Assembly (NCBI GenBank): GCA_902781705.1
Contig: CACZKE010000001.1
Coordinates: 208,353 to 272,352, forward strand
DNA: 64,000 nt
Source of the DNA: an uncultured Bacteroidia bacterium
GTDB taxonomy: Bacteria > Bacteroidota > Bacteroidia > Bacteroidales > UBA932
Direction: 5' to 3'
Shown: one piece after another, positions 1 to 44,653 of the stretch
Layout of the letters: every line of letters starts with the position of its first letter
Numbering within the stretch: position 1 is the stretch's first letter
Notes under the pieces: model-generated
What the model was told of the DNA's origin: nothing
What the model saw: the letters and a program-made list of their open reading frames with translations, nothing else
The model's database searches: none
Position numbers and translations under genes: made by a program

Positions 1-521
1 GCGAAGGGCTCTGGGGCTGCGAGAACGACCCGGCGCTGCTGGAGCGTGTCACCGCCATCCCCGGCGTCGACTACATGACCGTCCATATCTGGCCCTACAA
101 CTGGAGTTGGGCCCATGCGGAAAGCCTCGTGGAGGACCTTCCGAATGCTTTCGAGAAGACAGACGAATATATCGCCGCCCACCTCGGGCTGGCGAAAAAG
201 TACGGGCAGCCCGTCGTCGTGGAGGAGTTCGGCTTCCCGCGGGATGGCTTCTCGCCGGAGCGCAGCGCGACGACCCAGGGGCGTGACGCTTATTACCGCC
301 ACATGTTCTCCAAGGTCGGAAAGGAACTCGCCGGTGCCAATTTCTGGGGCTGGAGCGGTTTCGCCCGTCCTTCCCACACCCAGTGGGAAAGCGGGGACGA
401 CTACACCGGCGATCCGGCCCAGGAGGCCCAGGGCCTGAACGGCGTCTATGCGGACGACACCACCGTAGAAATCATCAAACAATCCATAATCAACATCAAC
501 AATCAACCAAACAACCAGTAG
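1..521 (+). CDS. GH5 (subfamily 7-like) endo-beta-1,4-mannanase, C-terminal part
   Basis: The 5' end lies outside the window. The reading frame is open from base 3 and ends at TAG 519-521, leaving about 172 residues. The fragment carries the end of a clan GH-A TIM barrel: a VHIWPYNWSW strand, then a VVEEFGFPRDG strand whose second Glu (codon 225-227) fits the catalytic nucleophile of GH5, then FWGWSGFARP. This combination is typical of the GH5_7 mannanases of Bacteroidota, which cut internal beta-1,4-mannosidic bonds. The subfamily is assigned by motif recognition only. Four bases separate it from the following susC, so it belongs to the same operon. Localisation cannot be judged because the N-terminus is missing. 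Confidence 0.8.
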   Translation, partial: EGLWGCENDPALLERVTAIPGVDYMTVHIWPYNWSWAHAESLVEDLPNAFEKTDEYIAAHLGLAKKYGQPVVVEEFGFPRDGFSPERSATTQGRDAYYRHMFSKVGKELAGANFWGWSGFARPSHTQWESGDDYTGDPAQEAQGLNGVYADDTTVEIIKQSIININNQPNNQ

Positions 522-525
522 TAGC

Positions 526-3500
526 ATGAAAAACAAGCTGTTAACCTTCATGCTCGCGCTCCTCGCGACCGCAGGGTCCCTGTTTGCCCAGAACAGGGTC
601 ACCGGTACCGTCACCGACGATATCGGACCGGTCATCGGAGCCAGCGTGATGGAGAAGGGCACCCAGAACGGTGCCGTCACAGACCTGGATGGAAACTACG
701 TGATCACGGTGAAGCCCGGCGCGACGCTCGTGTTCTCTTCCATCGGCTATGCAACGCAGGAGATCGCCGTGGGCAGCCAGTCCACGATCAACGTCCTCCT
801 GAAGGAAGACACCGAATTCCTCGACGAGGTCGTCGTCGTGGGTTACGGTACCATGAAGCGGAGCGACCTCTCCGGCGCTTCCGTATCCATGAAGGAAGAG
901 GATCTAAAGGGGTCCATCATCACCAACCTGGACCAGTCCCTCCAGGGCCGCGCCGCCGGTGTCACCGCGGTGCAGACCTCCGGTGCCCCGGGTTCTTCCT
1001 CCTCCATCCGCGTCCGCGGCCAGGCGACGGTCAATGCCAACGCCGAACCGCTGTATGTCATCGACGGTGTGATCGTCCAGGGTGGCGGCAATTCCGGCGG
1101 CGACTTCGGTCTGGGCGGACTCGGAAACGGCAAGGTTTCCACCATCTCCCCGCTCGCCACCATCAACCCGGCCGATATCGTGTCCATGGAAATCCTCAAG
1201 GATGCTTCCGCGACGGCCATCTACGGTGCCCAGGGTGCGAACGGCGTCGTCCTCATCACCACCAAGCACGGTAAGGCCGGCGACGCCAAGTTCTCCTACG
1301 ACGGCATGTTCGCGGTTTCCCGCCAGAACAGCCGCATCGACATGATGGACCTCCGCCAGTTCTCCGAATACTACAACGACCTGGCCGAGCAGGGCCTCGT
1401 GGACCACAACGGGTATTATGCCGATCCGTCCATTCTCGGCAAGGGTACCAACTGGCAGGATGAGGTGTTCCGCACCGCGCTCCAGCATCAGCACCAGATC
1501 AGCGCCCAGGGCGGTTCCGAAAAGGTGCAGTACTATGTGTCCGGTTCCTACATGGACCAGCAGGGTACCATCATCGGTTCCAACTTCGACCGTCTGTCCT
1601 TCCGTACCAACCTGGATGCGCAGCTCAAGGACTGGTTCAAGCTGGGCGTGAATGCCACCTACGCCGTGACCAACGACGACATCAAGCTTGCCGACGGTCA
1701 GGAGGGTGTCATCTTCTATTCCCTGAGCACGCTGCCCGACATCCCGGTCTATGACCTGGACGGCAACTACTCCACGACGGTCCGTGAGGGTTACACCTCC
1801 GCCAACCCGGTGGCCCTCGCCATGCTGGACCAGAACCTCCTCAAGCGTCAGAAACTCACCGGAAACGTCTATGCGGACCTCACGCCCGTCAAGCATTTCA
1901 CCTGGCGCAGCGAAGTCGGCTTCGACGTTTCCAACTCCGAGGCGACGACCTACAAACCGATGGTGAACCTCGGCGGCTGGCAGCGCGGCAACAACTCCAT
2001 GAGCACCCAGCGCAACGCCAGCACCTACTGGTCCATCAAGAACTACCTGACCTATTCCAACACCTTCGGCAAGCACAGCCTGACGGCGATGGTGGGCCAG
2101 GAAGCCTGGGAATCCCGCTGGAACTACCTCGGTGCCAACAACACCGGCCTTCCTTCGGACGATATCCACAATATCAAACTCGCCACCGGCAACCCGACCG
2201 TGAACTCTGGTTTCGGTTCCTCCGCGATGGCTTCCTTCTTCACCCGTGAGACCTACAACTACGACGACCGCTACCTGGCTACCTACACCTTCCGCCGGGA
2301 CGGTTCCTCCAACTTCGGTCCGGACAACCGCTGGGCGAACTTCCATTCCTTCGCCGCCTCCTGGCGTTTCACCAACGAGGCCTTCCTGAAGGACTTCACC
2401 CGTTCCATCGGCCTGGACAACGGTAAGATCCGCGTGGGCTGGGGCCAGACGGGTAACGCCAACATCGGCGGCGGCGCCTGGGAGTCCGGCATGAGCAAGA
2501 TGCCCACCGGCCTCGGCGACAGCCAGCGTCCGGCGAACATCTCCAACACCGGTATCCACTGGGAGAAGCAGGTGCAGACCAACGTCGGTTTCGACCTGAA
2601 CTTCCTGAAGAACCGCCTCAACCTGACGGTGGACCTCTATAGGAAGGTCTCTTCCGACATGCTGATGTCCCTGACCCTCCCGTCCTACATGGGTACGCAG
2701 GGCAACGGTTCCTCCGCCCTCGCCGCGCCGAAGGGCAACTTCGGTACCATTGAGAACAAGGGTTTGGAAATCACCCTGGACACCCATCCGATCGACAACA
2801 AGAACTTCGGCTGGGACAGCAACTTCCAGGTCTCCTTCAACAAGAACAAGCTCGTCGCCCTGGACGGCTCCGCCAATGCGCAGCTCGTGGGCTACGGCCA
2901 GTGGAGCGACATCGTTTCCGTGACCGAGATCGGCCAGTCCCTCTACAACTTCTACGGCTATGTCGTGGAGGGTGTGTACGAGTCCCTCGAGGACATCCAG
3001 AACTCCCCGAAGGCGGAGAAGTATCCGGCCGACGGCGTGTTCAACCGCGCGACCACCGTGTGGGTGGGCGACATCAAGTTCAAGGATGTCAACGGCGACG
3101 GCGTCATCAACGAGCATGACCAGACCAACATCGGTTCCCCGCTTCCGAAGTTCACCTTCGGCTGGACGAACTCCTTCCGCTACAAGAACGTGGACCTGTC
3201 CGTGTTCCTGAACGGTTCCTATGGCAACAAGGTCCTCAACTACAACATGATGGGCCAGGGCTACAACGGCCTCGTGCACATGAACAGCACCTGGACGAAC
3301 CAGCACGTGTCCATCCAGGACCGCGCCCGCCTCGTGGTCGTGGACGCCGAGAAGACGTACGCCGACGGTTCCATGTGGTATGACGACATCACCAACGTGA
3401 AGGTCGCCAACTCCGGCACCAAGACCCCGCGTCCGACCATCCAGGACCCGAACGACAACGACCGCCTGAGCACCCGCTACATCGAGGACGGTTCCTACCT

Positions 3501-3741
3501 CCGCATCAAGAACATCACCCTGGGCTACACGTTCCCCAAGACCGTGCTCCAGAAGGTGAAGATCGACAATGTGCGCGTCTATATGAACATCCAGAACCTC
3601 TACACCTTCACGAAGTACACCGGCTTCGATCCGGAAGTGGGCGCCTCCACGCAGGATTCCTCCGGCCTGACCTTCGGTGTGGACAACGGACGTTATCCTT
3701 CTCCGATGACCTGTTCCTTCGGTCTGAACATCACTTTCTAA
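526..3741 (+). CDS. SusC-like TonB-dependent outer-membrane glycan transporter (pair 1)
   Basis: 1071 residues. A signal peptide ends at about residue 21 (SLFAQ). A CarboxypepD_reg-like domain follows (about 22-100: TGTVTDD, GAVTDLDGNYVI, LVFSSIGYATQEI). Next come the TonB-box/plug junction (DEVVVVGYGTMKRSDLSGA), the plug (VIDGVIV, VSMEILKDASATAIYGAQGANGVVLITTKHG) and a 22-strand-type barrel ending in an aromatic residue (LNITF). It imports oligosaccharides across the outer membrane with energy from TonB. It sits directly after a mannanase and 18 bases before its SusD partner, so mannan oligosaccharides are the inferred cargo. Confidence 0.95.
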   Translation: MKNKLLTFMLALLATAGSLFAQNRVTGTVTDDIGPVIGASVMEKGTQNGAVTDLDGNYVITVKPGATLVFSSIGYATQEIAVGSQSTINVLLKEDTEFLDEVVVVGYGTMKRSDLSGASVSMKEEDLKGSIITNLDQSLQGRAAGVTAVQTSGAPGSSSSIRVRGQATVNANAEPLYVIDGVIVQGGGNSGGDFGLGGLGNGKVSTISPLATINPADIVSMEILKDASATAIYGAQGANGVVLITTKHGKAGDAKFSYDGMFAVSRQNSRIDMMDLRQFSEYYNDLAEQGLVDHNGYYADPSILGKGTNWQDEVFRTALQHQHQISAQGGSEKVQYYVSGSYMDQQGTIIGSNFDRLSFRTNLDAQLKDWFKLGVNATYAVTNDDIKLADGQEGVIFYSLSTLPDIPVYDLDGNYSTTVREGYTSANPVALAMLDQNLLKRQKLTGNVYADLTPVKHFTWRSEVGFDVSNSEATTYKPMVNLGGWQRGNNSMSTQRNASTYWSIKNYLTYSNTFGKHSLTAMVGQEAWESRWNYLGANNTGLPSDDIHNIKLATGNPTVNSGFGSSAMASFFTRETYNYDDRYLATYTFRRDGSSNFGPDNRWANFHSFAASWRFTNEAFLKDFTRSIGLDNGKIRVGWGQTGNANIGGGAWESGMSKMPTGLGDSQRPANISNTGIHWEKQVQTNVGFDLNFLKNRLNLTVDLYRKVSSDMLMSLTLPSYMGTQGNGSSALAAPKGNFGTIENKGLEITLDTHPIDNKNFGWDSNFQVSFNKNKLVALDGSANAQLVGYGQWSDIVSVTEIGQSLYNFYGYVVEGVYESLEDIQNSPKAEKYPADGVFNRATTVWVGDIKFKDVNGDGVINEHDQTNIGSPLPKFTFGWTNSFRYKNVDLSVFLNGSYGNKVLNYNMMGQGYNGLVHMNSTWTNQHVSIQDRARLVVVDAEKTYADGSMWYDDITNVKVANSGTKTPRPTIQDPNDNDRLSTRYIEDGSYLRIKNITLGYTFPKTVLQKVKIDNVRVYMNIQNLYTFTKYTGFDPEVGASTQDSSGLTFGVDNGRYPSPMTCSFGLNITF

Positions 3742-3759: not shown

Positions 3760-5541
3760 ATGAAAAATACGCTTAAATATATCGTCCTCTCCGCGGCCCT
3801 CGTCCTGAGTTCCGTCTCCTGCGAGAAGTTCCTGGACCGTCCGTCCGAGGATTCCTACACCACCGCCGACTTCTATAAGAACGACGCGCAGGTCGAACAG
3901 GGTATCAACTACCTGTACAACTCCCCGTGGTACGACATCATCCGCTTCTACATCTATGGCTCCGAAACCATGTGCGGCAATGTCTATCAGGGCCAGAACG
4001 CCTATTCCACCCTGACCGTGAACGGAACGGACAAGGACCTCAAGAACATGGCCTATTCCCTCTGGGCGGTGAACGCGCAGTGCAACACGGTCATCAACAA
4101 CATCCTGAATGCGGAAACCACCGCTTCCCAGGCTGTCAAGGACCGCTGCATCGGCGAGGCCCTCGCCTGGAAGGCGATGACCTATTTCCTGCTGGTGCGC
4201 ACCTTCGGCGACGTCCCGATCATCCATGACAACACCGAGGTGATCAAGGAAGCCAGCTACAACGAGGTATTCAAGGTGCAGAAGGCCGATGTCTATGAGT
4301 ACATCGTCATGACCCTCGAGAAGGCCATGGAACTTCTTCCGAAGAACGCCTATATTGGCAAGCTCAACCGCATCGACTACTATGCCGCCGAGGCCCTTCT
4401 CTCGAAGGTCTATCTCACCAAGGCCGGTGTCTCCGGTTCCCTGAACCAGGACGATCTCGCCGCCGCGGCCCGCTATGCAAAGGATGTCATCGACAATTCC
4501 GGCCGTACGCTGACCCCGAAGTACTCCGACATCTTCCGGATGACTCCGGACAAGTACCAGCAGACCGGTGAGGAACTCTTCACCTGGCACTGGCAGTGCA
4601 AGCAGGAGGTCTGGACTTCCCAGAACTCCATCCAGTGCGACGTAGGTCTGGTCGGCTTCGACGAGAACGGTAACCTCTGGGGCGACTGGAAGGGCCCTTC
4701 CATTGACCTCCAGGAGGCCTTCGGCGTGCTGGCTACGGACGACCCGACCCAGCGGACCAATACCGACGACCGCCGCCAGGCGACCATGATGATGTTCGGT
4801 GACCAGTACGACTATTTCTGGACCGACATGGGCGGTTTCGACTTCTACCGCTTCTTCTATGACGACAGCTACGCTCCGGGCGGCCTCTCGGCCAACGCTT
4901 CCAGCAAGTCCTTCGGTTGCTCTTCCGGTGCCAACTATGCCAAGCACCTCTATGGCGACGTCGCCGACCACGTGGCTGCGTTCGGCTATCCGTCCTTCGG
5001 CATGTACAACCAGCTTCCGACGCACATCCTGCGCCTGGGTGACATCTACCTCGTCTATGCCGAGGCCGCTTTCCTGACCGGCAACACCTCCGACGCCCTC
5101 ACCTATGTGAACAAGATCCGCGAGCGTGCCCATGCCACTCCGCTCACTTCCGTCACTTACGAGGACATCTGGAAGGAGCGCCGCCTGGAACTCGCCCTCG
5201 AGGGCGACCGCTGGTACGACTATGTGCGCCGTTCCTACTACGATGTGGACGCCTGCATCGCCGACCTGCTGGCCCAGCACCGTTCCAAGTGGAGCGGGGA
5301 CCTGAACGGGGTGTACAAGACCTTCGTGACCGACGCCCAGGGCAATTATGTCGGCCCCGGCGCCCGCGAGTTTGACGCCAGCGCCATCACTTACGATCCT
5401 TCCGAGGACCTTGCCGACGTGAAGCCCTCCATGTTCACGATTCCTTTCCCGACGGAAGACGTCGTGATGAACCCGAACGTGGCCTCCACCGCCGAACCGG
5501 TCCATGTGGATGTCCGCGAGACTTATTCGTATGACTTTTAA
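3760..5541 (+). CDS. SusD-like surface glycan-binding lipoprotein (pair 1)
   Basis: 593 residues. The lipoprotein signal ends at VLSSVSC, so Cys is lipidated and the protein is predicted on the cell surface as the lid of the preceding SusC. The N-terminal CEKFLDRPSED start, the central helical repeats (YYAAEALLSKVYLTKAG) and the C-terminal HILRLGDIYLVYAEAAF and WKERRLELALEGDRWYD segments are hallmarks of SusD/RagB. The next gene overlaps its stop codon (TAATG), which shows tight translational linkage. The glycan specificity is inferred from the neighbours. Confidence 0.95.
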   Translation: MKNTLKYIVLSAALVLSSVSCEKFLDRPSEDSYTTADFYKNDAQVEQGINYLYNSPWYDIIRFYIYGSETMCGNVYQGQNAYSTLTVNGTDKDLKNMAYSLWAVNAQCNTVINNILNAETTASQAVKDRCIGEALAWKAMTYFLLVRTFGDVPIIHDNTEVIKEASYNEVFKVQKADVYEYIVMTLEKAMELLPKNAYIGKLNRIDYYAAEALLSKVYLTKAGVSGSLNQDDLAAAARYAKDVIDNSGRTLTPKYSDIFRMTPDKYQQTGEELFTWHWQCKQEVWTSQNSIQCDVGLVGFDENGNLWGDWKGPSIDLQEAFGVLATDDPTQRTNTDDRRQATMMMFGDQYDYFWTDMGGFDFYRFFYDDSYAPGGLSANASSKSFGCSSGANYAKHLYGDVADHVAAFGYPSFGMYNQLPTHILRLGDIYLVYAEAAFLTGNTSDALTYVNKIRERAHATPLTSVTYEDIWKERRLELALEGDRWYDYVRRSYYDVDACIADLLAQHRSKWSGDLNGVYKTFVTDAQGNYVGPGAREFDASAITYDPSEDLADVKPSMFTIPFPTEDVVMNPNVASTAEPVHVDVRETYSYDF

Positions 5542-5552
5542 TGCGTGATCCG

Positions 5553-6857
5553 ATGAAAGCAATTACCAAATATACCGGCTTCATCCTGGGTGCGATCCTT
5601 TCCGTCTCCTGTGCCAACCTGGACTATCCGGACCGTTTCAAGGAGACGACCGGTGTCCCGACGGTCCACTTCGTCCGTTACGCGGACCGGGACATCGCCA
5701 TCACCCAGGCCAACATGGAAGAGCTCGTGTGCGTGGTGGGCGACAACCTCACCAGCGTCCACGACATCTACTTCAATGACCAGGCCGCCGTCCTGAACTC
5801 GAGTTACATGACCCCGCACACCATCGTGGTGGCGGTGCCCAAGAACATGCCCGTCGAGCAGACGGACAAGATGTACCTGATCACCCGCGACAGCTCCGTC
5901 GTGGCCTATGACTTCAAGGTTCTCCCGCCGGCTCCGAAGATTTCCGGCATGTCCAACGAGTGGGCGAAGCCCGGTGAGACCGTGAGCATCTACGGCTCCT
6001 ACCTCTTCCCGCCGATTTCCGTCGAGTTCCCGGGTGCCGATCCTGTGGAGGTGACCACCGGCGACGGTACGGCCGTCAGCGTGGTCGTTCCTGCCACCGC
6101 CCAGCCGGGCAAGATCAAGGTCAACAACGACTCCGGTACCGCCCAGTCCGTGTTCATGTACCGGGATTCCCGCGGCATGCTGTTCGACTTCGACGGTGCG
6201 ACGGGCCTGGACAACCATGGCTGGAACGGCCACAGCTCCCAGGACGACGACGGAACGGGCGTGAGCGGACGGTACTTCCAGTTCGGCGACGGCGTCACGC
6301 CGCTCACCGGCGACTGGGAAGAGGCCCACTTCTCCTTCGTTTACTGGCCGGGTTCCTGGAACGATCCCGAGAATTATCAGGACGGTCCGATGGGTGCGCG
6401 CCTGATCGACCTTGCCGACTTCACCGACTGGAAGAACATGGCCCTCAAGTTCGAGATCTGCGTTCCTGCCTCCAATCCCTGGACGGGCACTCCGATGCAG
6501 CTCACCATGGCTGGTGTGGACAAGGTGTCCTTCGGCGGCGCTGTGACGGATATCTACGGAAACCAGTGCGCCGGTGCGAACAACACCTACATGTCCAGCA
6601 ACGACACGCCCCGCGGACTGTATCGTCCCTGGGCTGCGACAGGCAGCTTCGACACGGGTGGCCAGTGGGTGACCGCGACCATTCCGCTGGCGGAATTCAC
6701 CTACGGCTGGGACGGTAATCCTTCCTCCGGAACCCTGAATGCCGACAGCTTCTCCAGCCTGTGGATCTTCATCTGCGCCGGCGGTGCCGAGAAACCGGCC
6801 GAGCCTTGCACGCCGATCATCAAGATCGACAACATCCGCGCTGTCCCTTACAAATAA
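5553..6857 (+). CDS. IPT/TIG-containing surface glycan-binding lipoprotein (SGBP-B type)
   Basis: 434 residues if translation begins at the second ATG (5553). An ATG at 5541 overlaps the susD stop codon, but the signal peptide reads best from MKAITKYTGF, with Cys in LSVSC as the lipidation site. Two immunoglobulin-like IPT/TIG domains follow. A C-terminal domain of about 220 residues is rich in Trp and Tyr (YWPGSWNDPENY, FTDWKNMALKFEICVP, IIKIDNIRAVPYK) and resembles the glycan-binding end of SGBP-B proteins encoded after susD in other loci. The role is to hold glycan at the cell surface for the SusCD complex. Binding to mannan is inferred from context. Confidence 0.8.
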   Translation: MKAITKYTGFILGAILSVSCANLDYPDRFKETTGVPTVHFVRYADRDIAITQANMEELVCVVGDNLTSVHDIYFNDQAAVLNSSYMTPHTIVVAVPKNMPVEQTDKMYLITRDSSVVAYDFKVLPPAPKISGMSNEWAKPGETVSIYGSYLFPPISVEFPGADPVEVTTGDGTAVSVVVPATAQPGKIKVNNDSGTAQSVFMYRDSRGMLFDFDGATGLDNHGWNGHSSQDDDGTGVSGRYFQFGDGVTPLTGDWEEAHFSFVYWPGSWNDPENYQDGPMGARLIDLADFTDWKNMALKFEICVPASNPWTGTPMQLTMAGVDKVSFGGAVTDIYGNQCAGANNTYMSSNDTPRGLYRPWAATGSFDTGGQWVTATIPLAEFTYGWDGNPSSGTLNADSFSSLWIFICAGGAEKPAEPCTPIIKIDNIRAVPYK

Positions 6858-6875
6858 TGAGAGGAGATTGAGTCT

Positions 6876-9266
6876 ATGAAAAAAATACTGAAATACTCCG
6901 TAATGGCGTTCCTCTGCCTCTCCGCGGTCTCCCTGACCGGCTGCAAGCAGGAGGAATACGATACCGACCAGTATGCCGGCGCCGTGGCGCTGAGCGCCGT
7001 CGCCCCGAATCCGGTGATGCGCGGCGGTGAACTCCGCATCCTGGGCAGCAACCTGGAGAACGTCTCCGAGATCCGCTTTGCCGGCGATGTCACCGTGACC
7101 GACTTCACCGTCACCAAGTCCGGCGCCCACGGTGAACTGCGTGTCATGGTCCCGCTCGAAGGTCCTGTGGTGGGCAAGGTGTCCATCGTCACCAAGGACG
7201 GCACCGTCCTGGATTCCTTCGCGGACCTGGAGTTCACCGAACCCATCGAACTGGATTCCTTCGCTCCGGCGGAGGTCCTCTCCGGCGATGTGGTCACCGT
7301 CAAGGGTGAATACCTGAACAACGTGCAGGAGGTGATCCTGGGCGGTGTGTATATCACCGAATTCGTGAGCAAAGACCGCCACGAACTCAAGTTCGTCGTT
7401 CCTTCCGATGCCGTTACCGGCTATGTGATTGTGGGCGACGTGAACGAGATCGCGGATCCCAACACGATTCCGAACCAGATCTATTCCGCGACGGAGCTCG
7501 TCGTGGGCGACCCGACCGTGAACGCAGCCCAGAAGGCGACCTACAAGAGCGGTGACGTCATCACCGTGACCGGCGCCCATCTGGACATGATCGAGAAGGT
7601 GGACCTTGTCGGTGCCTCCGAGGTCGAGTTCACCGTGGCCGAGGATGGCAGCAGCCTGAGCTTCAACCTTCCCGCCAGCGCTACCGACGGTGGGATCACC
7701 CTCACTTCCTATGCCGGCAAGACCTTCACCGCCGGTGAGATCGAGACCGTGACGGTCGCCGACCTCGCTATCGAGTCCCTCGCCGAGGACGGCCGCTACA
7801 AGGCTGGCTCCGAGGTGAAGATCTCCGGCAGCGACCTCGACCTCGTGACCAAGGTGGACTTCACGAATGCCTCCGCCTCTTCCTGGTATTATTCCGACGG
7901 CGTCATCACCGCGACGATCCCTGCCGAGGCCAAGGACGGTGCCGTTACCGTCACCCTGGATTCCGGCAAACAGGCCTATACGCCTGAAATCGAGGTGGTG
8001 AAGCCGGTCGCGACCGGCGTGGACAAGACCGAGGCGGTCGCCGGCAAGGACAAGGTGGTCGTTTCCGGTACGGACCTCGACCTCGTGACCGGCGTCACGA
8101 TCGGTGACAAGGTCCAGTCTTTCATCACCTGCGAGTTCTCCGTGAACAGCGCCGAGGAAGCGGTCGTGACCATTCCTGCCGCCGCTTACGACGGTGTCCT
8201 CACCCTGACCGCGGAAAGCGGTTACACGAGCGAGACCGAGGTCATTGCCATTTCTTACAACGAAGAGATTTCCGTCGTCTACGACGCTCCTTCCTTTGAA
8301 ATGGGCGAGGTCATCTCCTTCACCGGCACCGACCTGCTGAAGGTGGAGTCCGTCTCCCTCAAGGGAAACAAGGTGCTTCAGTATCTTGTCCGTGAAGACC
8401 AGGCGATGGCCTTCACCATGCCGGAAGGCGTGGGCCCGGGCGTCTATCGCCTGGACTTCACGCTCATCGACGGCACGTCCCTGACCTGGCCGGTCCCGTT
8501 CGAGATCACGGCTCCTTACACCGAGACCTTCCTGTTCCAGGGCTCCCAGGATCTGGGTTCCTGGAGCATCAACTGGTCCCTGACGCCTGCCGATGCGATG
8601 GTTCAGGCCGGCGCCAAGGCCGGTGACATCCTCCGCATCTACGGCACGCCGACCGCCGACTGGTGGCAGATCCAGATGTTCGACGGCCATTGGGGCGGCA
8701 TGGACCTGGGTCTGGGCAATGGAAACAATGTCAATCCCAACATCTACGACCTCTCCGAAGGTTATATCGCCATCGAACTGGATGCGGATCGCGCCGAGAA
8801 GTTCACGACCCTGACCGACTGGGGCCAGTACGCCATCCTCCAGGGCGAGAACTTCATCGTAACCGGCATCTCCCTGATCCAGTTCGGCCTGACCGAGACC
8901 GTGGTCTGGGAAGGCCCCAGCGCCCACACGGGTGATTATGACCTGAATCAGGAACTGGGCTCTGAAGACGCCTGGCTGAACGCTGGTCTTCGTGAAGGAG
9001 CCGAAGTCCGCATCTATTTCACCCCGGATGACTGGAACGACTGGTCCATCCAGATCTTCGACGGCCACTGGAACGGCATGGGCTATGTCACGCCGAACGG
9101 TAAACAGTGGAATGTGGAGAATACACCCGATGCGGCCGAGAAACACTATGTGTCTTTCATCGCGGAAGGTGACGCCTTCAAGGCCCTGACGACCCCGGCG
9201 GGATGGGGCTATGCGATTGTCCTGCAAGGCAAGAACATGGTCTTCGACAAAGTCGTCTTCTTCTAG
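6876..9266 (+). CDS. Long multidomain IPT/TIG surface lipoprotein with twin C-terminal DGHW modules
   Basis: 796 residues. The lipoprotein signal ends at VSLTGC. About six IPT/TIG-like beta-sandwich repeats follow (starts such as SAVAPNPVMRGGELRILGSNL, then GDVVTVKGEYL, GDVITVTGAHL, GSEVKISGSDL, KVVVSGTDL and GEVISFTGTDL), forming a stalk to about residue 545. The rest is two copies of a module of about 125 residues with matching motifs: ILRIYGTPTADWWQIQMFDGHWGGM and VRIYFTPDDWNDWSIQIFDGHWNGM, each ending in a YA-ILQG-N strand. No catalytic motif is visible, so this is probably a mannan-binding protein held away from the membrane. It is the last gene before a hairpin at 9279. Confidence 0.75.
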   Translation: MKKILKYSVMAFLCLSAVSLTGCKQEEYDTDQYAGAVALSAVAPNPVMRGGELRILGSNLENVSEIRFAGDVTVTDFTVTKSGAHGELRVMVPLEGPVVGKVSIVTKDGTVLDSFADLEFTEPIELDSFAPAEVLSGDVVTVKGEYLNNVQEVILGGVYITEFVSKDRHELKFVVPSDAVTGYVIVGDVNEIADPNTIPNQIYSATELVVGDPTVNAAQKATYKSGDVITVTGAHLDMIEKVDLVGASEVEFTVAEDGSSLSFNLPASATDGGITLTSYAGKTFTAGEIETVTVADLAIESLAEDGRYKAGSEVKISGSDLDLVTKVDFTNASASSWYYSDGVITATIPAEAKDGAVTVTLDSGKQAYTPEIEVVKPVATGVDKTEAVAGKDKVVVSGTDLDLVTGVTIGDKVQSFITCEFSVNSAEEAVVTIPAAAYDGVLTLTAESGYTSETEVIAISYNEEISVVYDAPSFEMGEVISFTGTDLLKVESVSLKGNKVLQYLVREDQAMAFTMPEGVGPGVYRLDFTLIDGTSLTWPVPFEITAPYTETFLFQGSQDLGSWSINWSLTPADAMVQAGAKAGDILRIYGTPTADWWQIQMFDGHWGGMDLGLGNGNNVNPNIYDLSEGYIAIELDADRAEKFTTLTDWGQYAILQGENFIVTGISLIQFGLTETVVWEGPSAHTGDYDLNQELGSEDAWLNAGLREGAEVRIYFTPDDWNDWSIQIFDGHWNGMGYVTPNGKQWNVENTPDAAEKHYVSFIAEGDAFKALTTPAGWGYAIVLQGKNMVFDKVVFF

Positions 9267-9278: not shown

Positions 9279-9316
9279 AATCCGGAGGGGGCTGACCCTC
9301 CCTCCGGGTTCCATTT
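9279..9316 (+). terminator. Intrinsic terminator or attenuator inside the locus
   Basis: An 11-bp stem (9279-9289 with 9300-9310, one G-T wobble) has a 10-base loop and is followed by CCATTTTG. It lies 12 bases after the stop of the long surface lipoprotein. The U-tract is short, so it may only lower transcription into the mannanases. Confidence 0.55.
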
Positions 9317-15955: not shown

Positions 15956-15961
15956 ACGAAA

Positions 15962-15992
15962 GAATCCCGGCTGTGAGGCCGGGATTCCTTTT
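15962..15992 (+). terminator. Terminator between converging symporter and AraC genes
   Basis: A perfect 10-bp stem (15962-15971 with 15978-15987) has a 6-base loop and is followed by CTTTT. It ends the + strand operon. Its last bases overlap the stop codon of the AraC gene on the other strand. Confidence 0.85.
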
Positions 15993-16851: not shown

Positions 16852-16867
16852 GGTGCTGTGGTTTGTA

Positions 16868-16875
16868 CAAAGGTA
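16868..16875 (-). promoter_or_regulatory. Candidate -7 box of the AraC gene
   Basis: On the - strand this reads TACCTTTG, a full TAnnTTTG match 16 bases before the chosen ATG at 16851. It supports the shorter start of the regulator. Confidence 0.5.
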
Positions 16876-16960
16876 GCAAGAATTCGGAAAAGAGAACCGG
16901 CTTTTCAAAAAAGTACACTTTTTTAACCGATATATACAACCTACCGTCCGTCGCATGCGC

Positions 16961-16968
16961 TATCTTTG
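16961..16968 (+). promoter_or_regulatory. Candidate -7 box of block 2 (SSS symporter onwards)
   Basis: TATCTTTG is a full match to TAnnTTTG and lies 24 bases before the ATG at 16993. Together with the AraC promoter at 16868 it makes the 141-base divergent region 16852-16992 the natural site for AraC binding. A clear -33 TTTG is not seen. Confidence 0.55.
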
Positions 16969-16992
16969 CATTACCACAGAAACTAAAGCGCC

Positions 16993-22190: not shown

Positions 22191-22205
22191 GCCATGCGGA
22201 AGGAC

Positions 22206-33279: not shown

Positions 33280-33280
33280 T

Positions 33281-34921: not shown

Positions 34922-37656
34922 ATGAGAAAGTCCATTCTCCTGATTATGGGTATGACCCTCATGGCCTGCCCGCTCGGGGCACAGGAAAGGCATCGCCAGC
35001 AGGTGTCCTCCAACTTCGGGCTGACCGCTCCCCACGACCCGGCGGACCTGCCGGTGTCGCGGGCGGCGGTCGTATGGCCGGAGCGGAATCCGAAGCAGGT
35101 GCCGGCCCCGCGGCTGGACCTCCAGGAGGATGGCACCTGGCTGCTTGTCGGCGGCTGGGAACTCCGCGCGGGGGATTCCGACGAATGGCTGGACGCCGTC
35201 GTTCCGGGAACGGTCCTGACGTCACTGGTCGCTGACGGAATCTATCCGGATCCGCATTACGGGCTGAACAACCTGGTCATTCCCGAAGACCTGTGCCGCA
35301 AGGACTGGTGGTACCGGACGGAACTGTCCCTGACGGATGGATTGCTGGCCAAGGAAAAACTGGAACTGCTCTTCAACGGCATCAATTACCGGGCGGAGGT
35401 CTGGCTGAACGGCGGGAAACTCGGCCGTATCGACGGCGCTTTCGTCCGCGGCCGCTTCGACATCACGGCCCTGGCCCGGAAGGAGAACCTGGTCGAGGTC
35501 CATATCTTCCCGCCGGCTAACCCCGGCATCCCGCACGAGCAGTCGGCGCGGACCGGACGGGGACCGAACGGCGGCGTCCTGTGCCTGGACGGCCCCACCT
35601 TCATCTGCAGCGAAGGATGGGACTGGGTGCCGGGCGTCCGGGACCGCAATATCGGCATTTGGCAGGATGTGCGTCTGATCGCCTCCGGCGGACTGACGCT
35701 GGGGGATACCCGGGTCGTCACGGACCTGCCGCTGCCTTCCACGGAGTATGCCGACCTGACGGTCCGGACCTCCGTGACCAATTCCCTGGAACATGCCGCC
35801 CCGGTCACCGTCCGGGCCGCCGGCGACGGTTTCTCGGCAGAGACCTCCGTGACCGTTCCTGCGGGCGCTACCGTCCCGGTCGAACTGCATGCCCGGATGG
35901 ACCATCCGGCGCTCTGGATGCCGAACGGTTATGGCGAACCCAACCTCTATGACCTTTCGCTTACCTGCAGCGTCGACGGCCGGGTGTCCGACCGCCAGTC
36001 GCTCCGTTTCGGCGTCCGGGAATTCACCTACGAACTGACGGCCGATGCGCCCGGACGACCGGGCCTTCGGATCGGCTACGACCCCGCTCTCGGGGCCATC
36101 TTCAACAACCGCCTTCTCCGAGGCGTCGGAGGCGGCGTTTCGGTCCCTTCGCTCAAGGAAGGGGTCGATCCGGACCGGCTTCCGCTTCTGGAACCGGACG
36201 CCATGGCGCCCTATCTCGTGATCCGGGTGAACGGGGTCCGCATCTTCTGCAGAGGCGGCAACTGGGGTATGGACGACATGCTCAAGAATACGGCCCGGGA
36301 GCATCTGGAACCCTATTTCAAACTCCATCGGGCCGCCGGATTCAACATGGTCCGGAACTGGACCGGCGAGAATACGGAAGAGATCTTCTACACCCTGTGC
36401 GACGAGTACGGCCTCCTGGTCTGGAACGACTTCTGGATGTCCACGGAAGGGTACAACCTCCAGCCGGTGGACGAGAACCTGTTCATGGCCAATGCCGCCG
36501 ATGTCGTCCGCCGGTTCCGGAACCATCCTTCCATCGCCGTCTGGTGCCCCCGCAATGAGGGGTATGCCCCGGAGAGTCTGGAAGCGAGACTGTCGGCCCT
36601 GATCGCGAAGGAAGACGGAACCAGGCTCTATCTCCCGAATTCCCGGGATTGCAACCTGCGGCCGAGCGGGCCCTGGCACTATTTCACCGATCCGGCCCGT
36701 TACTACACCGAGACCGCCGCCGGTTTCAATACCGAACTGGGGTCTCCGTCCGTCCCCACGGCCCGTTCCATGCGGAGATTCCTGCCGGAGGCCGACCTGT
36801 GGCCGATCGGGGATGCCTGGCATTACCATGACCTGCATCCCGAGACGAAGGTGTTCCGCGAGTCGCTGGAGCGCCTCTACGGCCCGGCGACGGACCTGGA
36901 CGACTTCTGCCGCAAGGCCCAGCTCATGGGCTACGACAGTTACCGCGCCATGTTCGAGTCCTGGAACAGCCGGCTGTGGGACAATACCTCCGGCGTCCTC
37001 CTCTGGATGTCGCATCCGGCCTGGCCCAGCGTGGAATGGCAGAGTTATTCCTGGGACGGCGAGACCATGGGCTCCTGGTTCGGCAGCAAGAAGGCCTGTA
37101 CGCCGTTGCATGTCCAGATGAATCTGCACGACCGGAAAGTGGTCCTGGTGAATACGACCCCGTCCGATACGCCGGACCTCATGGTGGAACTGACCGTGAC
37201 GGACCTCTCCGGGAAAGTGCTTTATCGCCGTTCCGACCGGAAGGTCTCGGTCGAAGCCAATTCGTCAGTCCCTGTCTTTACGGCGGACATTCCCTCTTTC
37301 GAGGGGGTGGTTCTGGCCCGGCTGCGTTTGCTCGACATGGACTCGAAAGTGCTGGAAATCAATGATTATTTGCTCTCTGGCGGAGATGATTTCCTCCCCT
37401 TGAACGATCTTCCAAGCGTGACGCTGAAGGCGCGCCGCCTCCGGGACGGCCGCTATGAAATCTCCAATCCGTCCAGGGTCCTGGCCGTGGGCGTGAAACT
37501 GAATCTGATGCGTGGCGGCGAGCAGGTGCTCCCGGCCCTTTTCTCCGACGGATACTTCCATCTGCTTCCCCGGGAGAAGCGCATCATTGACGTGGAATAT
37601 GACGGCGGCGGGGTGGTTACCCTTTCCGCCGAAGGCTATAACATTGACGGAATCCG

Positions 37657-37660
<4 letters not shown>
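34922..37660 (+). CDS. GH2 beta-mannosidase-like exo-hydrolase
   Basis: 912 residues. A signal peptide ends at PLGAQ, giving a periplasmic enzyme. The GH2 order is visible: jelly-roll (VPGTVLTSLVADGIYPDPHYG, WWYRTEL), Ig-like domain, TIM barrel (FCRGGNWGMDDML, GFNMVRNWTGE, LLVWNDFWMS) and C-terminal beta domains. Acid/base is Glu546 in CPRNEGY and nucleophile is Glu605 in FNTELGSPSVP. This architecture is shared by beta-mannosidases and exo-beta-glucosaminidases. In a mannan locus, release of mannose from non-reducing ends is the likely role. The stop overlaps the GH30 start by four bases. Confidence 0.83.
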
Positions 37661-40250
<2,590 letters not shown>

Positions 40251-40269: not shown

Positions 40270-42219
40270 ATGAAAAAAGCATTGATCCTTTTGGTCCCCG
40301 CCCTGGCGCTGCTGGCGTCCTGCGGCGATGCCATCGAGATTCCCGATGTGAGCGGCTCCGGGAATACGCCCGGCAACGTGAACCCGGACGTCCCGCTCGC
40401 GGGCGACGTCGTGTTCACGGCCACCCTGGCGGATCTGCCTGACGGGTCCCAGCCCACCTGGGCGCAGGGCGACGCCATCCTCCTGTCGGACGGTTCCACG
40501 GTCCAGACGCTCACGAACCGGGCCGCCGCCGGTCAGGTGGCCGAGTTCCCCGGCAAGGTGACGGAAGGGAAGACTTCCTTCGTCGCCGTCTCTCCGGCTG
40601 CGGAAGGGATTTCTTTCAGCGGGAGCGGTTTCTCGTTCGAGATTCCCGTGACCCAGTCCGGCGCCGGTGCCGCCTTCCGGGTGGCGAAGGCCTCCGGGAC
40701 GCACCTGTTCTTCCAGAGCCTGGTCTCCGAGATCCGCTTCACGGTGGATTTCGAAGGGGCGACCAAGGTCCGGTTCCAGACCGCCGGTGAGAAGATCGCC
40801 GGAACGGTCACGGTCGATTATTCCGGGGAGAAACCCGTGGCGGCCGGTTCTTCGGACTATGTGGAGGTGGCTGGCCCCTTCGAGAAGGGAAAGACCTATG
40901 CTTTCTCCGCCCTTCCCGGCAGCCTGGACGGCTACAGCGTCATCGTCTATGCCGGCGATGCGGAAAAGGCCCATATCTCCGGTGAAGCCGTGGAACTGAA
41001 GGAGGGACTTTCCGCTACGCTGCCTGCTTTCGCCGAGGATATCCCGACCTACCGCATCACCAACCTGTGGGTCGGCGGCGGTACCGGTCCGGAGTACGGC
41101 GGTGGCGGAATCATCGACATCCTCACCAAGCCCGACTATTTCAACGATGAGGACGGCCGCGGCGTCACGGCGCTGGCGGACAACTATTACCAACTCCGTC
41201 CGGACGGGACGTTCGTGAACTATGCCGGAGAGGACGCCCGCAACTGGTGGTTCGTCTATTCCGGCAGCGTGAATCCTGTGAACGGGAAGGACATCGACCT
41301 GAGAAAGTTCTATGACGTCCTGCCGCTTTCCGAGGGACAGTATGCCATTGACGGCTCCACGGTCACTTTCACCAAGGCTGACGGTACGACCACGACGGCT
41401 GCCTGGATGGCTCCGGGCGAGTATGATGTGCCGGGTACGGGCAAGAAGGTGACCCTCACGCATCAGGCCCTGGCGTTCACCGTCACGGGCGGCAAGGACG
41501 ACTGGAACAACATCTACAAGGACTACGACAAGATCGCGGCCCGGCCGCGGGCCTTCATCATCGAACTGGAGCAACTCCCGGACGGATTCGTCGTTCCCGA
41601 GGCTTCCCGCACCTTCGATGCGGACTTCGAGTATGTCCCGCCGGTGGATCCGGGCGACAAGTTCGACTGGGCCAGCCTGCCCGGCAGCTGGAACGTGTTC
41701 GGCGGCAACGCTTCGCCGTACGGCATCTTCGTCCTGGGCGGTTCCGGCGACGACCCGGCCTTCGTGAGCCCCATCGACAAGAGTTGGGACTGGGACGACA
41801 GCATCTGGAAGGAATCCGACAACGGTTTCGTGATTGCCGTGACCTCCATGGAGGGAACGACCGTCAAGGGAACGACCAACTGGTGGGCCGGAAACGACGG
41901 TGCCTTCTGGAACTACACCTGGAAGAATACCGGTGAGGACCTGTCCCGCTTCTATGACCAGATCCCGAAGGGCAAGCACGAGTTCACGCTGGACATGGTC
42001 ACGATGACGGTCACCCTGGGCAACGGGCATGTGGCGAAGTTCCTCACGCCGGGTACGCACGAGTTCGTCTATGGCAAGACCTTCGAAGTGCGCGACGGCT
42101 GCTTCGCCCTGGCCTTCCACCTGATGGACCCGATTGCGGCCACCTCCCAGCGCTGGACCGACGTGGACCGCTTCGTGAACGCTCCGCTCGAGTATGTGAT
42201 CATGTTTGAGAAGCAGTAG
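40270..42219 (+). CDS. Putative surface glycan-binding lipoprotein with repeated aromatic module
   Basis: 649 residues. The lipoprotein signal ends at ALLASC. Residues about 40-255 form a beta-rich, fimbrillin-like region (TWAQGDAILLSDG, FFQSLVSEIRFTV). The remainder is two related modules: one around RNWWFVYSG with DLRKFYDVLPLSEGQYAIDG, one around TTNWWAGNDGAFWNY with DLSRFYDQIPKGKHEFTLD. Each ends in a beta-strand that precedes a conserved ALAF/ALAFHL strand. No catalytic signature. Last gene of block 2, so probably an additional cell-surface mannan binder. I do not recognise a named family. Confidence 0.65.
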   Translation: MKKALILLVPALALLASCGDAIEIPDVSGSGNTPGNVNPDVPLAGDVVFTATLADLPDGSQPTWAQGDAILLSDGSTVQTLTNRAAAGQVAEFPGKVTEGKTSFVAVSPAAEGISFSGSGFSFEIPVTQSGAGAAFRVAKASGTHLFFQSLVSEIRFTVDFEGATKVRFQTAGEKIAGTVTVDYSGEKPVAAGSSDYVEVAGPFEKGKTYAFSALPGSLDGYSVIVYAGDAEKAHISGEAVELKEGLSATLPAFAEDIPTYRITNLWVGGGTGPEYGGGGIIDILTKPDYFNDEDGRGVTALADNYYQLRPDGTFVNYAGEDARNWWFVYSGSVNPVNGKDIDLRKFYDVLPLSEGQYAIDGSTVTFTKADGTTTTAAWMAPGEYDVPGTGKKVTLTHQALAFTVTGGKDDWNNIYKDYDKIAARPRAFIIELEQLPDGFVVPEASRTFDADFEYVPPVDPGDKFDWASLPGSWNVFGGNASPYGIFVLGGSGDDPAFVSPIDKSWDWDDSIWKESDNGFVIAVTSMEGTTVKGTTNWWAGNDGAFWNYTWKNTGEDLSRFYDQIPKGKHEFTLDMVTMTVTLGNGHVAKFLTPGTHEFVYGKTFEVRDGCFALAFHLMDPIAATSQRWTDVDRFVNAPLEYVIMFEKQ

Positions 42220-42290: not shown

Positions 42291-42302
42291 ATGGAAAATG
42301 CC

Positions 42303-42310
42303 TATCTTTA
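42303..42310 (+). promoter_or_regulatory. Candidate -7 box of the esterase-metallopeptidase unit
   Basis: TATCTTTA differs from TAnnTTTG only at the last base. It lies just after the terminator and 17 bases before the ATG at 42328. Confidence 0.4.
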
Positions 42311-42327
42311 TGGGGATAAACACTGAT

Positions 42328-43776
42328 ATGATGAAACGAATTCTTCTGAGTCTGGCGCTGCTTCTGGCGGCGACGGCCCTGTTCGCGGGAAATCTCCGCG
42401 TCGCGCACATTTTCTCCGACCACATGGTCCTCCAGCGGGAGACCACGGCTCCGGTGTGGGGCTGGGGCGATCCCGGGAAGACGGTGCTGGTGGAAACCTC
42501 CTGGGACGGGAAGACTGTCCAGACCAGGGTGGCCAAGGACGGCACCTGGCGGGTGGACATCGCCACCGGGAAGGCCGGCGGCCCGTTTGTCGTGACGGTC
42601 CGGTCCGGACGCGATGCGGTTTCGTTCGGCGATGTGCTCCTGGGCGAGGTGTGGGTCTGCTCCGGCCAATCCAACATGGAGATGCCTGTCGGCGGTTTCG
42701 GTTTCCAGGAAGTGGCGGGAGCCCGGGAGGCCATCCTGAAGGCGGGGACCTATGCCAATAAGGTCCGTGTGTTCCATATCCACACTCCTAAATGCAAAGA
42801 ACCCATTGACGACGTGGATGCGGCCTGGACCCGGGCATCGGCCGGTGTCTGCGCCGGAACGTCTGCCGTGGGCTGGTTCTTCGCGACCGGATTGGCCGAT
42901 AACCTGGACGTTCCCGTAGGCATTGTCGTGAATCCCTGGGGCGGAAGCCGGATCGAGCCGTGGATGACCAACGAGGCCATCGATGCTGCCGGCATCACGG
43001 CCGAGGAGCGCGCGGCCATTGACGCCATCGAGGAACAGCCCGACCGCTGGCCGGAGACGCCGGAACTGATCTGGAACGGTCGCATGGCCCCGATCGCGGG
43101 CTATGCCGCGAAGGGCTTCCTGTGGTACCAGGGCTGCTCCAACATCGGCCAGAACTGCTATGACAAACTCCAGACCGCGATGGTGAAACTCTGGCGCGAC
43201 CGCTGGGGAAGGGGAGACATGCCGTTCATCTTCGCCCTGCTGGCTCCCTATGAGCATGGCGATGCCAACGGCCGCTGGCGCCCGCAGTTCGTGGAAACCC
43301 AACTCCGCAGTCTCAAGACCATCCCGAACAGTTACGCTGTCTCCACCGAAACCTGGGGCAACCAGGTGACGGTGCATCCTTCCCAGAAGCAGGAAGTGGC
43401 CGACATGATGCTTCTCCGTGCCCTGCAGTCCGTATATGGGCAGAACCTGAATTTCGATATCGAACTCCCTGAATTCAAGAGCATTGAGTATCTGGAGGAC
43501 GGCAGCGTGAAAGTCCTTCTGACCCATGTGTGGTCCAACCTGATGAGCATCTCCTCCCGCAAGATCGTGGGCTTCGAACTCGCGGGTGCGGACAAGCAGT
43601 TCCACCTCGCCGAGGCGGAGGTCGACTGGGACGGCCAGACCATTATCGTGAAATGTCCCGATGTCCCGAAGCCCATCGCCGTCCGCTACGGATTCCGCAA
43701 CTGGATGGGCGCGAATCTGGAAAAGACCCCGGGCATCCCTGTTCCGCCGCTGCGGAGTGACGACTGGAATCTGTAG
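42328..43776 (+). CDS. SASA-type carbohydrate acetylesterase (sialate O-acetylesterase family)
   Basis: 482 residues from ATG 42328; ATG 42331 is equivalent. Upstream in-frame codons run through the terminator and are not coding. The signal peptide ends at TALFAG. Family hallmarks are HIFSDHMVLQRE near the N-terminus, VCSGQSNMEMP with the SGNH-type Ser, WGGSRIEPWM, GFLWYQGCSN and a late VHPSQKQEVADMM segment that supplies the His. These enzymes hydrolyse O-acetyl esters on sugars. In this position acetylated mannan is the inferred substrate, complementing the CE1-like esterase. Confidence 0.85.
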   Translation: MMKRILLSLALLLAATALFAGNLRVAHIFSDHMVLQRETTAPVWGWGDPGKTVLVETSWDGKTVQTRVAKDGTWRVDIATGKAGGPFVVTVRSGRDAVSFGDVLLGEVWVCSGQSNMEMPVGGFGFQEVAGAREAILKAGTYANKVRVFHIHTPKCKEPIDDVDAAWTRASAGVCAGTSAVGWFFATGLADNLDVPVGIVVNPWGGSRIEPWMTNEAIDAAGITAEERAAIDAIEEQPDRWPETPELIWNGRMAPIAGYAAKGFLWYQGCSNIGQNCYDKLQTAMVKLWRDRWGRGDMPFIFALLAPYEHGDANGRWRPQFVETQLRSLKTIPNSYAVSTETWGNQVTVHPSQKQEVADMMLLRALQSVYGQNLNFDIELPEFKSIEYLEDGSVKVLLTHVWSNLMSISSRKIVGFELAGADKQFHLAEAEVDWDGQTIIVKCPDVPKPIAVRYGFRNWMGANLEKTPGIPVPPLRSDDWNL

Positions 43777-43780
43777 GCCC

Positions 43781-44653
43781 ATGAAACGTTTCGTCCTTCT
43801 CTCCCTCTGCGTCTGCCTGGCCGTGTCAGGCTGCGCCAAGCGTCCGTATGATCCCGCTACCGACCCGAAAGGGCAGACCGAGCAGGACCCCGACGCCATC
43901 ACCGCCCCGCCGGCGGACCTGCTGCAGTGGCTGGACGGAAAGTCTTCGCCGCTCAGTTCCTGGTACAAGAAGTATATCGCCGACGAAGGGTTCCCCATCC
44001 TGGCGTCGGCCGTAGTCCGCGACGAGGCGCTGATCCAGTGCCGCTACATCGTCCACACGATGCTTGAGAAGCATCCCGAGGCCCGGAAAAAGATGATCGA
44101 GATGCACTGGCGCGTGGTGATCTGCGGCTATCAGCAGAACATCACCGACATCCCGGAGTGCGCCATCATGCCCATCTGGTGGCCGGATACCGACTGGAAT
44201 GCCCGGGGGCGCGGTTACGGCGCCACGGAGGCGCTTCCCGTCATGAGCATCGGCGAAGAGAATATCGTCAAGATCCCGAATTTCACGGAGCGTTACGCCA
44301 CCGAAAGCATCATGGTCCACGAGTTCGCCCATAATGTGGACTACGCCCTCCGCAAGGCCTGGAACGGGTTCGAGAAGAAACTCCTGGACTGCTACAACCA
44401 TGCGAAGACGACCGGCCTTTGGCAGGGCGGCGTGTATGACTACGCGATGACGAACTCCGAAGAGTATTTCGCCGAGGCCTCCCAGGCCTGGTACAATACC
44501 TGCCGCATGATCGTCAAGGATCCGGCCACCGGAAAGAACTTCACGCTCAAGACCCGTGAACAACTCAAGGAGCACGATCCGCAGATGTATGAGCTTCTCT
44601 CAACGGTATATACGGAGGAGTATCTGAAGGGTTATCACTTTGATTACGAGTAA
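43781..44653 (+). CDS. Lipoprotein zinc metallopeptidase (HExxH)
   Basis: 290 residues. The lipoprotein signal ends at LAVSGC. HEFAH (residues 180-184) is the zinc-binding and catalytic motif. A downstream NSEEYFAEA (about 226-233) offers a third Glu ligand, the arrangement of gluzincins related to anthrax lethal factor-like peptidases. Family members occur as unassigned putative zinc-binding metallopeptidases in Bacteroidota. It starts four bases after the esterase stop, so it is co-transcribed with a mannan enzyme. A role in trimming glycoprotein or processing surface lipoproteins is conjecture. Confidence 0.75.
   Translation: MKRFVLLSLCVCLAVSGCAKRPYDPATDPKGQTEQDPDAITAPPADLLQWLDGKSSPLSSWYKKYIADEGFPILASAVVRDEALIQCRYIVHTMLEKHPEARKKMIEMHWRVVICGYQQNITDIPECAIMPIWWPDTDWNARGRGYGATEALPVMSIGEENIVKIPNFTERYATESIMVHEFAHNVDYALRKAWNGFEKKLLDCYNHAKTTGLWQGGVYDYAMTNSEEYFAEASQAWYNTCRMIVKDPATGKNFTLKTREQLKEHDPQMYELLSTVYTEEYLKGYHFDYE

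Follow-up and report, generated by a model that had tools for sequence, protein, structure and literature searches.

The first 44 kb of the 64,000-nt stretch of Bacteroidia DNA analysed here (the window; contig C1, 208353-272352, ending at the contig end at 272352) are quite probably best explained as two adjacent, independently regulated beta-mannan utilization loci. Unit A would run from an AraC regulator upstream of the window to position 15955, and unit B from 15991 to 44653. Unit A is most likely a canonical beta-mannan polysaccharide utilization locus (PUL) with one SusCD pair, and unit B most likely represents a conserved, little-described type with a doubled SusCD importer. A preliminary description of 1-44653 had proposed a single, co-oriented mannan locus. 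Its inventory of three SusC/SusD pairs, three GH26 and two GH130 glycoside hydrolases (GH), GH5 enzymes, a GH2, a GH30, two esterases and two carriers was reproduced by Pfam and NCBIfam profile scans, and its four lipoproteins (starting at 5541, 6876, 21153 and 40270) were recovered by lipobox. Of its "other hydrolases", one appears to be a GH-A-like enzyme (19686-21131); another is instead a secreted metallopeptidase-like lipoprotein (43781-44653).

Coordinates are positions in the window, and the genome comprises 3.07 Mb in 43 contigs. Gene families were assigned by the profile scans and nearest enzymes by PDB-sequence search; gene content, families, order and conservation are reported as observed, and boundaries as predicted.

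A second regulator and a predicted terminator separate the two units

The co-orientation of the region is interrupted by a minus-strand AraC gene (araC2, from 15991). Around it and elsewhere, the following elements were predicted:

15959-15990, no strand: bidirectional intrinsic terminator at the A/B boundary, between the convergent GPH and araC2 genes; 13-pair stem (11 pairs on the plus strand)
16852-16992, no strand: divergent promoter-like region, with TATCTTTG on the plus strand and TACCTTTG on the minus strand
44680-44711, no strand: bidirectional terminator at the end of unit B; 14-pair stem
9279-9310, plus strand: terminator-like hairpin inside unit A, in the gap between binding-protein and enzyme genes; 13 pairs, weak T-tract

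The last of these, a possible attenuator candidate, has the longest stem among the 16 terminator-like sites of the scanned stretch. Sigma-70 promoter scans were uninformative, with counts at or below the shuffle level, and we therefore scanned with what we take to be the Bacteroidota-type consensus. Over 46.4 kb of the plus strand, 18 matches carried no more than 2 mismatches, some being the same site read at shifted positions. The GH5_7-like gene at the head of unit A is preceded by a 10/10 match (TTTG-20-TATCTTTG, 0 mismatches), and promoter-like elements of this type lie upstream of the unit A regulator araC1 (1 mismatch) and of araC2 (2 mismatches). Upstream of the sodium:solute symporter (SSF) gene, the first of unit B, we found a TATCTTTG element, but no -33 box within 2 mismatches. 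The start of araC2 is uncertain: its open reading frame (ORF) reaches 16956, and a start at codon 36 (16851) would suit the promoter-like element. As predicted from sequence, 1-44653 is thus not one regulatory unit free of internal terminators and of a second regulator.

Comparison with relatives, many of them from ruminant gut samples, supports the same division. Searches with SusC1 and SusC2 covered 101 genomes, including the genome under study, and 16 same-genus unit A neighbourhoods were fetched, mostly with at most 4 kb of sequence 3' of the unit. In three relatives (G016, G021 and G057), units A and B lie on different contigs; the other 13 of the 16 genomes hold no SusC2 relative above 50% identity. 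Together, the two AraC regulators, the convergent terminator, the separate promoter-like elements and the separated contigs leave the one-locus description unsupported. Three SusCD pairs among mannan enzymes, in conserved order, are not a chance pattern; proximity alone, however, is insufficient to make one locus, and SusCD pairs are common in this genome, which has 32 SusD (PF07980) matches, 31 of them over the cut-off.

Unit A is most likely a canonical mannan PUL

Unit A starts some 1.76 kb upstream of the window; its first gene encodes an AraC regulator and the next a GH5_7-like mannosidase. The latter, a third GH5 of the locus, starts about 770 bases before the window and is cut by it, and its AraC lies outside, so that the preliminary limits of 1-44653 did not enclose the locus. 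The genes of unit A are as follows:

L001:16597-17472, upstream of the window: AraC regulator araC1 (Pfam)
1-521, plus strand: 3' end of a GH5, presumably of GH5_7 type, nearest to the exo-beta-mannosidase Man5A (PDB 1uuq, 330 bits); full gene L001:17549-18871
526-3741, plus strand: SusC1, outer-membrane TonB-dependent transporter (TIGR04056, 913 bits)
3760-5541, plus strand: SusD1 lipoprotein (PF07980, PF14322)
5541-6857, plus strand: surface glycan-binding lipoprotein with SGBP_B_XBD domain (PF18329, 143 bits; lipobox)
6876-9266, plus strand: unk796, a 796-amino-acid lipoprotein with no Pfam family and a conserved place (lipobox)
9350-10765, plus strand: GH26a with BACON domain, lipoprotein (PF02156, 182 bits), nearest 6hf2 (212 bits), which we take to be the surface endo-mannanase BoMan26B
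10762-12297, plus strand: GH5b with BACON domain, lipoprotein, nearest GH5_4-type endoglucanases (6xso, 353.5 bits; 6xsu is named GH5-4)
12308-13408, plus strand: GH26b lipoprotein, nearest 4zxo (316 bits), which we take to be BoMan26A, a mannobiose-releasing beta-1,4-mannanase
13421-14581, plus strand: GH130a, a GH130_1-type mannosylglucose phosphorylase (MGP) with no lipobox (3was, 705.5 bits)
14612-15955, plus strand: GPH-type (MFS_2) inner-membrane sugar:cation symporter (TIGR00792, 268 bits, over the cut-off)

Unit A combines adjacent SusC/SusD-like genes with carbohydrate-active enzymes and a regulator, as expected of a PUL, and the presence of GH26 and GH5_7 enzymes with a GH130_1 and an inner-membrane carrier marks it as a beta-1,4-mannan PUL. 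All three GH26 enzymes of the region (a, b and c) keep the HE acid/base and S/T-E-x-G nucleophile motifs that we assume to be catalytic in this family. The unk796 protein is probably a second binding protein. From these families we infer a scheme in which GH26a and the GH5_4-like enzyme would cut (gluco)mannan at the surface, SusD1 and the binding lipoproteins would hold the glycan and SusC1 would import the oligosaccharides. In the periplasm, GH26b and the GH5_7-like enzyme would trim these products, and the GPH carrier would import mannobiose or Man-Glc. An epimerase encoded elsewhere would turn mannobiose into Man-Glc, which GH130a would phosphorolyse; its nearest structure, 3WAS, is the phosphorylase BF0772 with bound Man-beta-1,4-Glc, according to the accessible text of PMC4599007.

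SusC1 matches at E <= 1e-150 occurred in 30 of the 101 genomes, and the order SusC1-SusD1-SGBP-unk796 was retained in all 16 fetched neighbourhoods. GH130a was present in 12 of these 16; in three of the remaining four, the contig stops after unk796 or inside GH5b, and the fourth, G021, showed no GH130a in 3.7 kb beyond GH26b. A GH5b-like gene occurred in 13 of 16 neighbourhoods at only 28-34% identity, indicating that this enzyme is variable among relatives.

BoManPUL of Bacteroides ovatus is smaller than the region described here and contains a GH36 alpha-galactosidase. The comparisons that follow draw on the accessible portions of the cited papers. BoManPUL carries two GH26 mannanases, BoMan26A and BoMan26B, with relatives in our region (PMC5217682, PMC6556568). 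Unit A itself is of a known kind, with nearly the same parts present in the PREV32 PUL, BcMUL and Segatella copri PUL 7/8. The rumen mannan PUL of Prevotella sp. PREV32 shares SusCD, hypothetical proteins, GH5 subfamily 4, a mannanase GH5, two GH26, a GH130, a GPH carrier and an epimerase; it differs in having a CE7 and the epimerase nearby, and the accessible text mentions no tandem SusCD (PMC6784887). BcMUL of Bacteroides cellulosilyticus, whose proteins are abundant on acetylated galactoglucomannan and konjac glucomannan, resembles unit A in GH26A, GH26B, GH5_7, GH130_1, MFS and SusC/SusD, but includes GH5_2, GH3 and CE7 and is listed there with a single SusC/SusD pair and a single GH130, and without an SSF (PMC13276840). 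In S. copri, the adjacent PUL 7 and PUL 8 respond to glucomannan and likewise hold GH26, GH5_4, GH5_7 and GH130 with a separate epimerase, whereas one GH26 has lost its catalytic residues and PUL 7 has one SusC/D transporter (PMC12704710). The Muricauda mannan PUL (22 proteins) has GH26s, a GH130, a symporter and a second SusC/D pair alongside; there, the adjacent second pair was not mannan-induced by proteomics, and GH27 and GH5_26 are present (PMC9860051, PMC6298971). Two SusCD complexes serving one complex glycan are described for the rhamnogalacturonan I PUL of B. thetaiotaomicron, a pectin rather than a mannan system (PMC8002723).

Unit B carries a conserved tandem SusCD importer

Unit B most likely represents a variant module beside a known kind of PUL. 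Under its own AraC regulator, it would combine two different tandem SusCD importers, a BoMan26A-like GH26, a further GH130 that is not an MGP and an SSF symporter, with GH5/DUF5060, GH2, GH30 and two esterases as side-group enzymes:

15991-16851, minus strand: AraC-family regulator araC2, divergent from unit B (PF12833, PF00165; PF07883 cupin below cut-off)
16993-18573, plus strand: SSF sodium:solute symporter (PF00474, TIGR00813)
18577-19602, plus strand: GH130b, nearest beta-1,2-oligomannan and beta-1,2-mannobiose phosphorylases (9fj8, 194 bits; 7fip, 171 bits; 5b0p, 144 bits)
19686-21131, plus strand: GH-A-like lipoprotein with predicted clan GH-A-type TIM barrel and invariant NEP (Glu160) and GEAG (Glu269) motifs
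21153-22190, plus strand: unk345, a mostly beta 345-amino-acid lipoprotein (lipobox)
22194-23654, plus strand: GH26c with BACON domain, nearest 4zxo (PDB, 247 bits)
23667-26954, plus strand: SusC2 (profile scan, relatives)
26968-28794, plus strand: SusD2 (profile scan)
28812-31601, plus strand: SusC3, directly in tandem (PF07715, tandem order)
31615-33279, plus strand: SusD3 (profile scan)
33281-34915, plus strand: GH5c, DUF5060 with a GH5-like enzyme (PF16586; PF00150 just over cut-off; 9gmj, 136 bits)
34922-37660, plus strand: GH2 (Pfam; no NCBIfam model over cut-off)
37657-39129, plus strand: GH30, nearest endo-1,6-beta-glucanase BT3312 (5ngk, 223 bits; NF053856, 313 bits, cut-off 700)
39126-40250, plus strand: CE1-like esterase, feruloyl-esterase-domain-like (PF00756; NF041944, 149 bits, cut-off 1200)
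40270-42219, plus strand: 649-amino-acid lipoprotein with no family (lipobox)
42328-43776, plus strand: SASA-type acetylesterase (PF03629)
43781-44653, plus strand: last gene of unit B, lipoprotein with HEFAH metallopeptidase motif (PF07737 and PF06167 (M90) below cut-off; lipobox)

The unk345 protein is probably a glycan-binding protein; a fold search returned nothing at E <= 0.001. The PF07737 family matched below cut-off by the last gene is named after lethal-factor domains, and that gene shows no sign of a toxin role.

SusC2 matches at E <= 1e-100 were found in 33 of the 101 genomes, own included, and SusC2 is 72-86% identical in five other genomes of the same genus. In all five, GH26c and unk345 precede SusC2-D2-C3-D3; in G056, the contig ends within SusD3. 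A wider scan of named genomes returned at least 567 stretches encoding a SusC2 relative, of which the best 80, corresponding to 79 loci, were used with at most 10 kb fetched per side; gene-presence counts hold for those stretches. The tandem susC2-D2-C3-D3 appeared in 66 of the 79 loci and the other 13 are cut near contig ends, so that the order was held wherever there was room to show it (66/66). Its occurrence in Pedobacter, Chitinophaga, Capnocytophaga and Prevotella ruminicola KHT3 (L069), a cultured relative with most of unit B, suggests that the tandem is old. Among the same 79 loci, GH26c was seen in 20, GH5c in 21, GH130b in 7 and a GH130a-like gene in 6. Literature searches on mannan PULs, doubled SusC and DUF5060 among open-licence papers found no description of unit B.

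Both units most likely take beta-mannan

The beta-mannan theme of the preliminary description is well supported by the three GH26 enzymes, the GH5_7-like enzyme, the GH130_1 and the nearest structures. Its whole-plant-cell-wall version is not, as the scans of the region contained no xylanase, arabinofuranosidase or pectinase family; the sole hints of other glycans are the GH5_4-like enzyme, the GH30 and one of the esterases, for which the closest NCBIfam model describes a xylanase/feruloyl esterase. Both units most likely take beta-mannan, unit B most likely another one with more decoration, or the oligosaccharides derived from it, and it is a fair hypothesis that the two handle several mannan types together. 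For unit B, the glycan is judged from GH26c, a mannanase-like enzyme that keeps its catalytic residues, and from context only, because GH130b is nearest to beta-1,2-acting enzymes (65 bits against 3was, compared with 194 for 9fj8) and the unit lacks a beta-1,4-acting GH130 of subfamily 1 or 2, a frequent but not strictly required component.

Several observations weigh against the mannan assignment. Beyond the affinity of GH130b for beta-1,2-mannoside phosphorylases, the GH30 is nearest to a beta-1,6-glucanase, and general Pfam scans of units A and B revealed no alpha-galactosidase family. GH26c was not seen in 59 of the 79 SusC2 loci, some of which are cut, suggesting that this tandem importer is not necessarily specific for mannan. 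Among 76 flanking genes chosen from L055-L077, the Pfam families present (GH2, GH26, esterases, GH20 and BT_3987-like domains) were too few to name a substrate. The GH130b, GH30 and GH26c findings would also suit a rather unlikely alternative, in which the glycan of unit B is a different mannose-containing one, such as beta-1,2-linked mannosides or a glycan of fungal walls, and chance or a shared ecology explains its place next to a mannan PUL. A further point in its favour is a lysine after PE, present in the window copy of GH130b and in six of its nine orthologs (the pattern did not read the remaining three), which may be equivalent to the lysine named as a beta-1,2 determinant in the accessible text of PMC4599007. 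Conversely, in loci L080-L083 and L096, from Chitinophaga and Pedobacter, a GH130a-like gene with 60-66% identity adjoins the tandem pair, and no GH76, GH92 or GH99 family was found in scans of the window. GH26c is moreover nearest to 4zxo, presumably a mannanase. A PUL that is induced by gluco- and galactomannan and lacks a GH26 is described for X. ruminicola KHP1 in the accessible text of PMC11107044.

Adjacency of the units and the case for a single locus

The division into two units must also be weighed against relatives that keep them together. In L054 (Bacteroidales bacterium UBA3289), a nearly identical sequence with a SusC2 100% identical to ours, A lies beside B, and L055 and L056 hold A-type GH26b and GPH genes beside unit B, without araC2, SSF and GH130b; the neighbourhood may therefore be functional and co-induction of A and B possible. 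In G057, GH130a at the end of unit A is directly followed by a SASA gene sharing 67% identity with the unit B copy, suggesting that genes pass between the units. Most of the 16 unit A neighbourhoods cover only a few kb beyond the unit. Furthermore, the two-unit regulation is predicted from sequence, and terminator-like sites as a class did not exceed shuffles (3 against 1.7, 10 against 13.5 and 16 against 12.2), so that the boundary argument depends on stem length and position. Between the GPH gene and unit B, L055 (RUG193) carries a GH5-like gene (5467-7242), another mosaic of the same two units.

Such adjacency would fit a single large beta-mannan locus of 28 genes, including the upstream AraC, that responds jointly to acetylated galactoglucomannan and whose three SusCD pairs handle fragments differing in size or decoration, and the accessible text on S. 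copri offers a parallel in a PUL 8 gene (GH5_7) co-induced with the adjacent PUL 7 (PMC12704710). We regard this as decidedly unlikely given the two regulators, the predicted convergent terminator, the separate promoter-like elements and the units held apart in G016, G021 and G057. Even in L055, where the regulator layout differs, unit B again starts after a hairpin with a T-run and its own TACCTTTG element (2 terminator-like sites in that scan against 1.9 in shuffles); in L055 and L056, a Bacteroidota-like element read by eye precedes unk345. A chimeric assembly at the A-B junction was dismissed since L054, on another contig, starts in GPH (98% identity) and runs into araC2 (99%). On the two-unit reading, what sequence presents as one large multi-SusCD locus can be neighbouring PULs under separate regulation.

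A candidate glycoside hydrolase family linked to GH130b

The region points to a conserved tandem-SusCD mannan module and, in association with an unusual GH130, to a GH-A enzyme that is probably new. In the 481-amino-acid lipoprotein encoded at 19686-21131, the motifs F.IFNEPDG and LGEAG were invariant in 10/10 aligned rows, including the window and the near-identical L054. Its structure model (mean pLDDT 83.9) suggests the features of clan GH-A, namely a TIM barrel, an NEP motif and a second Glu near strand 7. At 11-17% identity, the best fold matches of the model are what we take, in part, to be GH30, GH79-type glucuronidase and GH39 enzymes. By sequence, neither Pfam and NCBIfam models nor PDB entries matched significantly: the best PDB-sequence match, a "GH2 catalytic domain-containing protein", had E 0.057, and the GH30 profile did not match, the only Pfam hit being DUF6001 (E 0.029, below cut-off). 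This lipoprotein is a candidate for a new glycoside hydrolase family.

At E <= 1e-30, the protein occurred in 9 of 393 genomes of the order, own included. SSF lay within 10 kb of its gene in all eight other genomes, GH130b in seven (the eighth stretch starts at SSF) and a GH26c-like gene in four, while the tandem SusCD accompanied it in one and other SusC types in seven. These counts suggest that SSF, GH130b and the GH-A-like enzyme travel together while the importer changes. Two tandem copies of the gene were present in each of G368 and G432, and two copies lay further apart in G439.

GH130b has no lipobox. As a tentative extension, possible though not favoured, unit B may be an undescribed portable mannoside module with a core of AraC, SSF, non-MGP GH130, GH-A and GH26 and varied SusCD importers. 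In this proposal, the GH-A-like lipoprotein, as a new family, would make a mannosyl disaccharide, possibly beta-1,2-linked, that SSF would import and GH130b would phosphorolyse. If true, phosphorolytic mannan breakdown would have a second route, running alongside that of the epimerase and GH130_1; a second such route for beta-mannosides in gut Bacteroidales would follow, and is testable.

Neighbouring genes and other features of the genome

Two further genes outside the locus may bear on mannan use:

52506-55190, minus strand: GH3, possible accessory (Pfam)
55120-56310, plus strand: mannobiose/cellobiose 2-epimerase-like (PF07221, 132 bits; NF041848, 287 bits, cut-off 800)

Epimerase-like genes were found here and on contig C3, and none inside unit A; the gene at 55120-56310 could supply the epimerase that the GH130_1 route would need. 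A minus-strand ORF at 55063-56271 was rejected as a gene, the plus-strand ORF being the epimerase. The epimerase-like gene and the divergent GH3 lie about 8-11 kb past unit B, separated from it by two permeases, DUF5020 and a set of deiminase-like, aminotransferase, kinase and carbamoyltransferase genes.

A tRNA scan of the window found none, and an Rfam scan nothing at gathering score; GC content along the window ranges over 57-64% in 2-kb steps. Elsewhere in the genome, L003:10271-12355 (contig C5) encodes a further GH26 fused behind a GH5, resembling the bimodular GH26/GH5_4 of S. copri with the order reversed.

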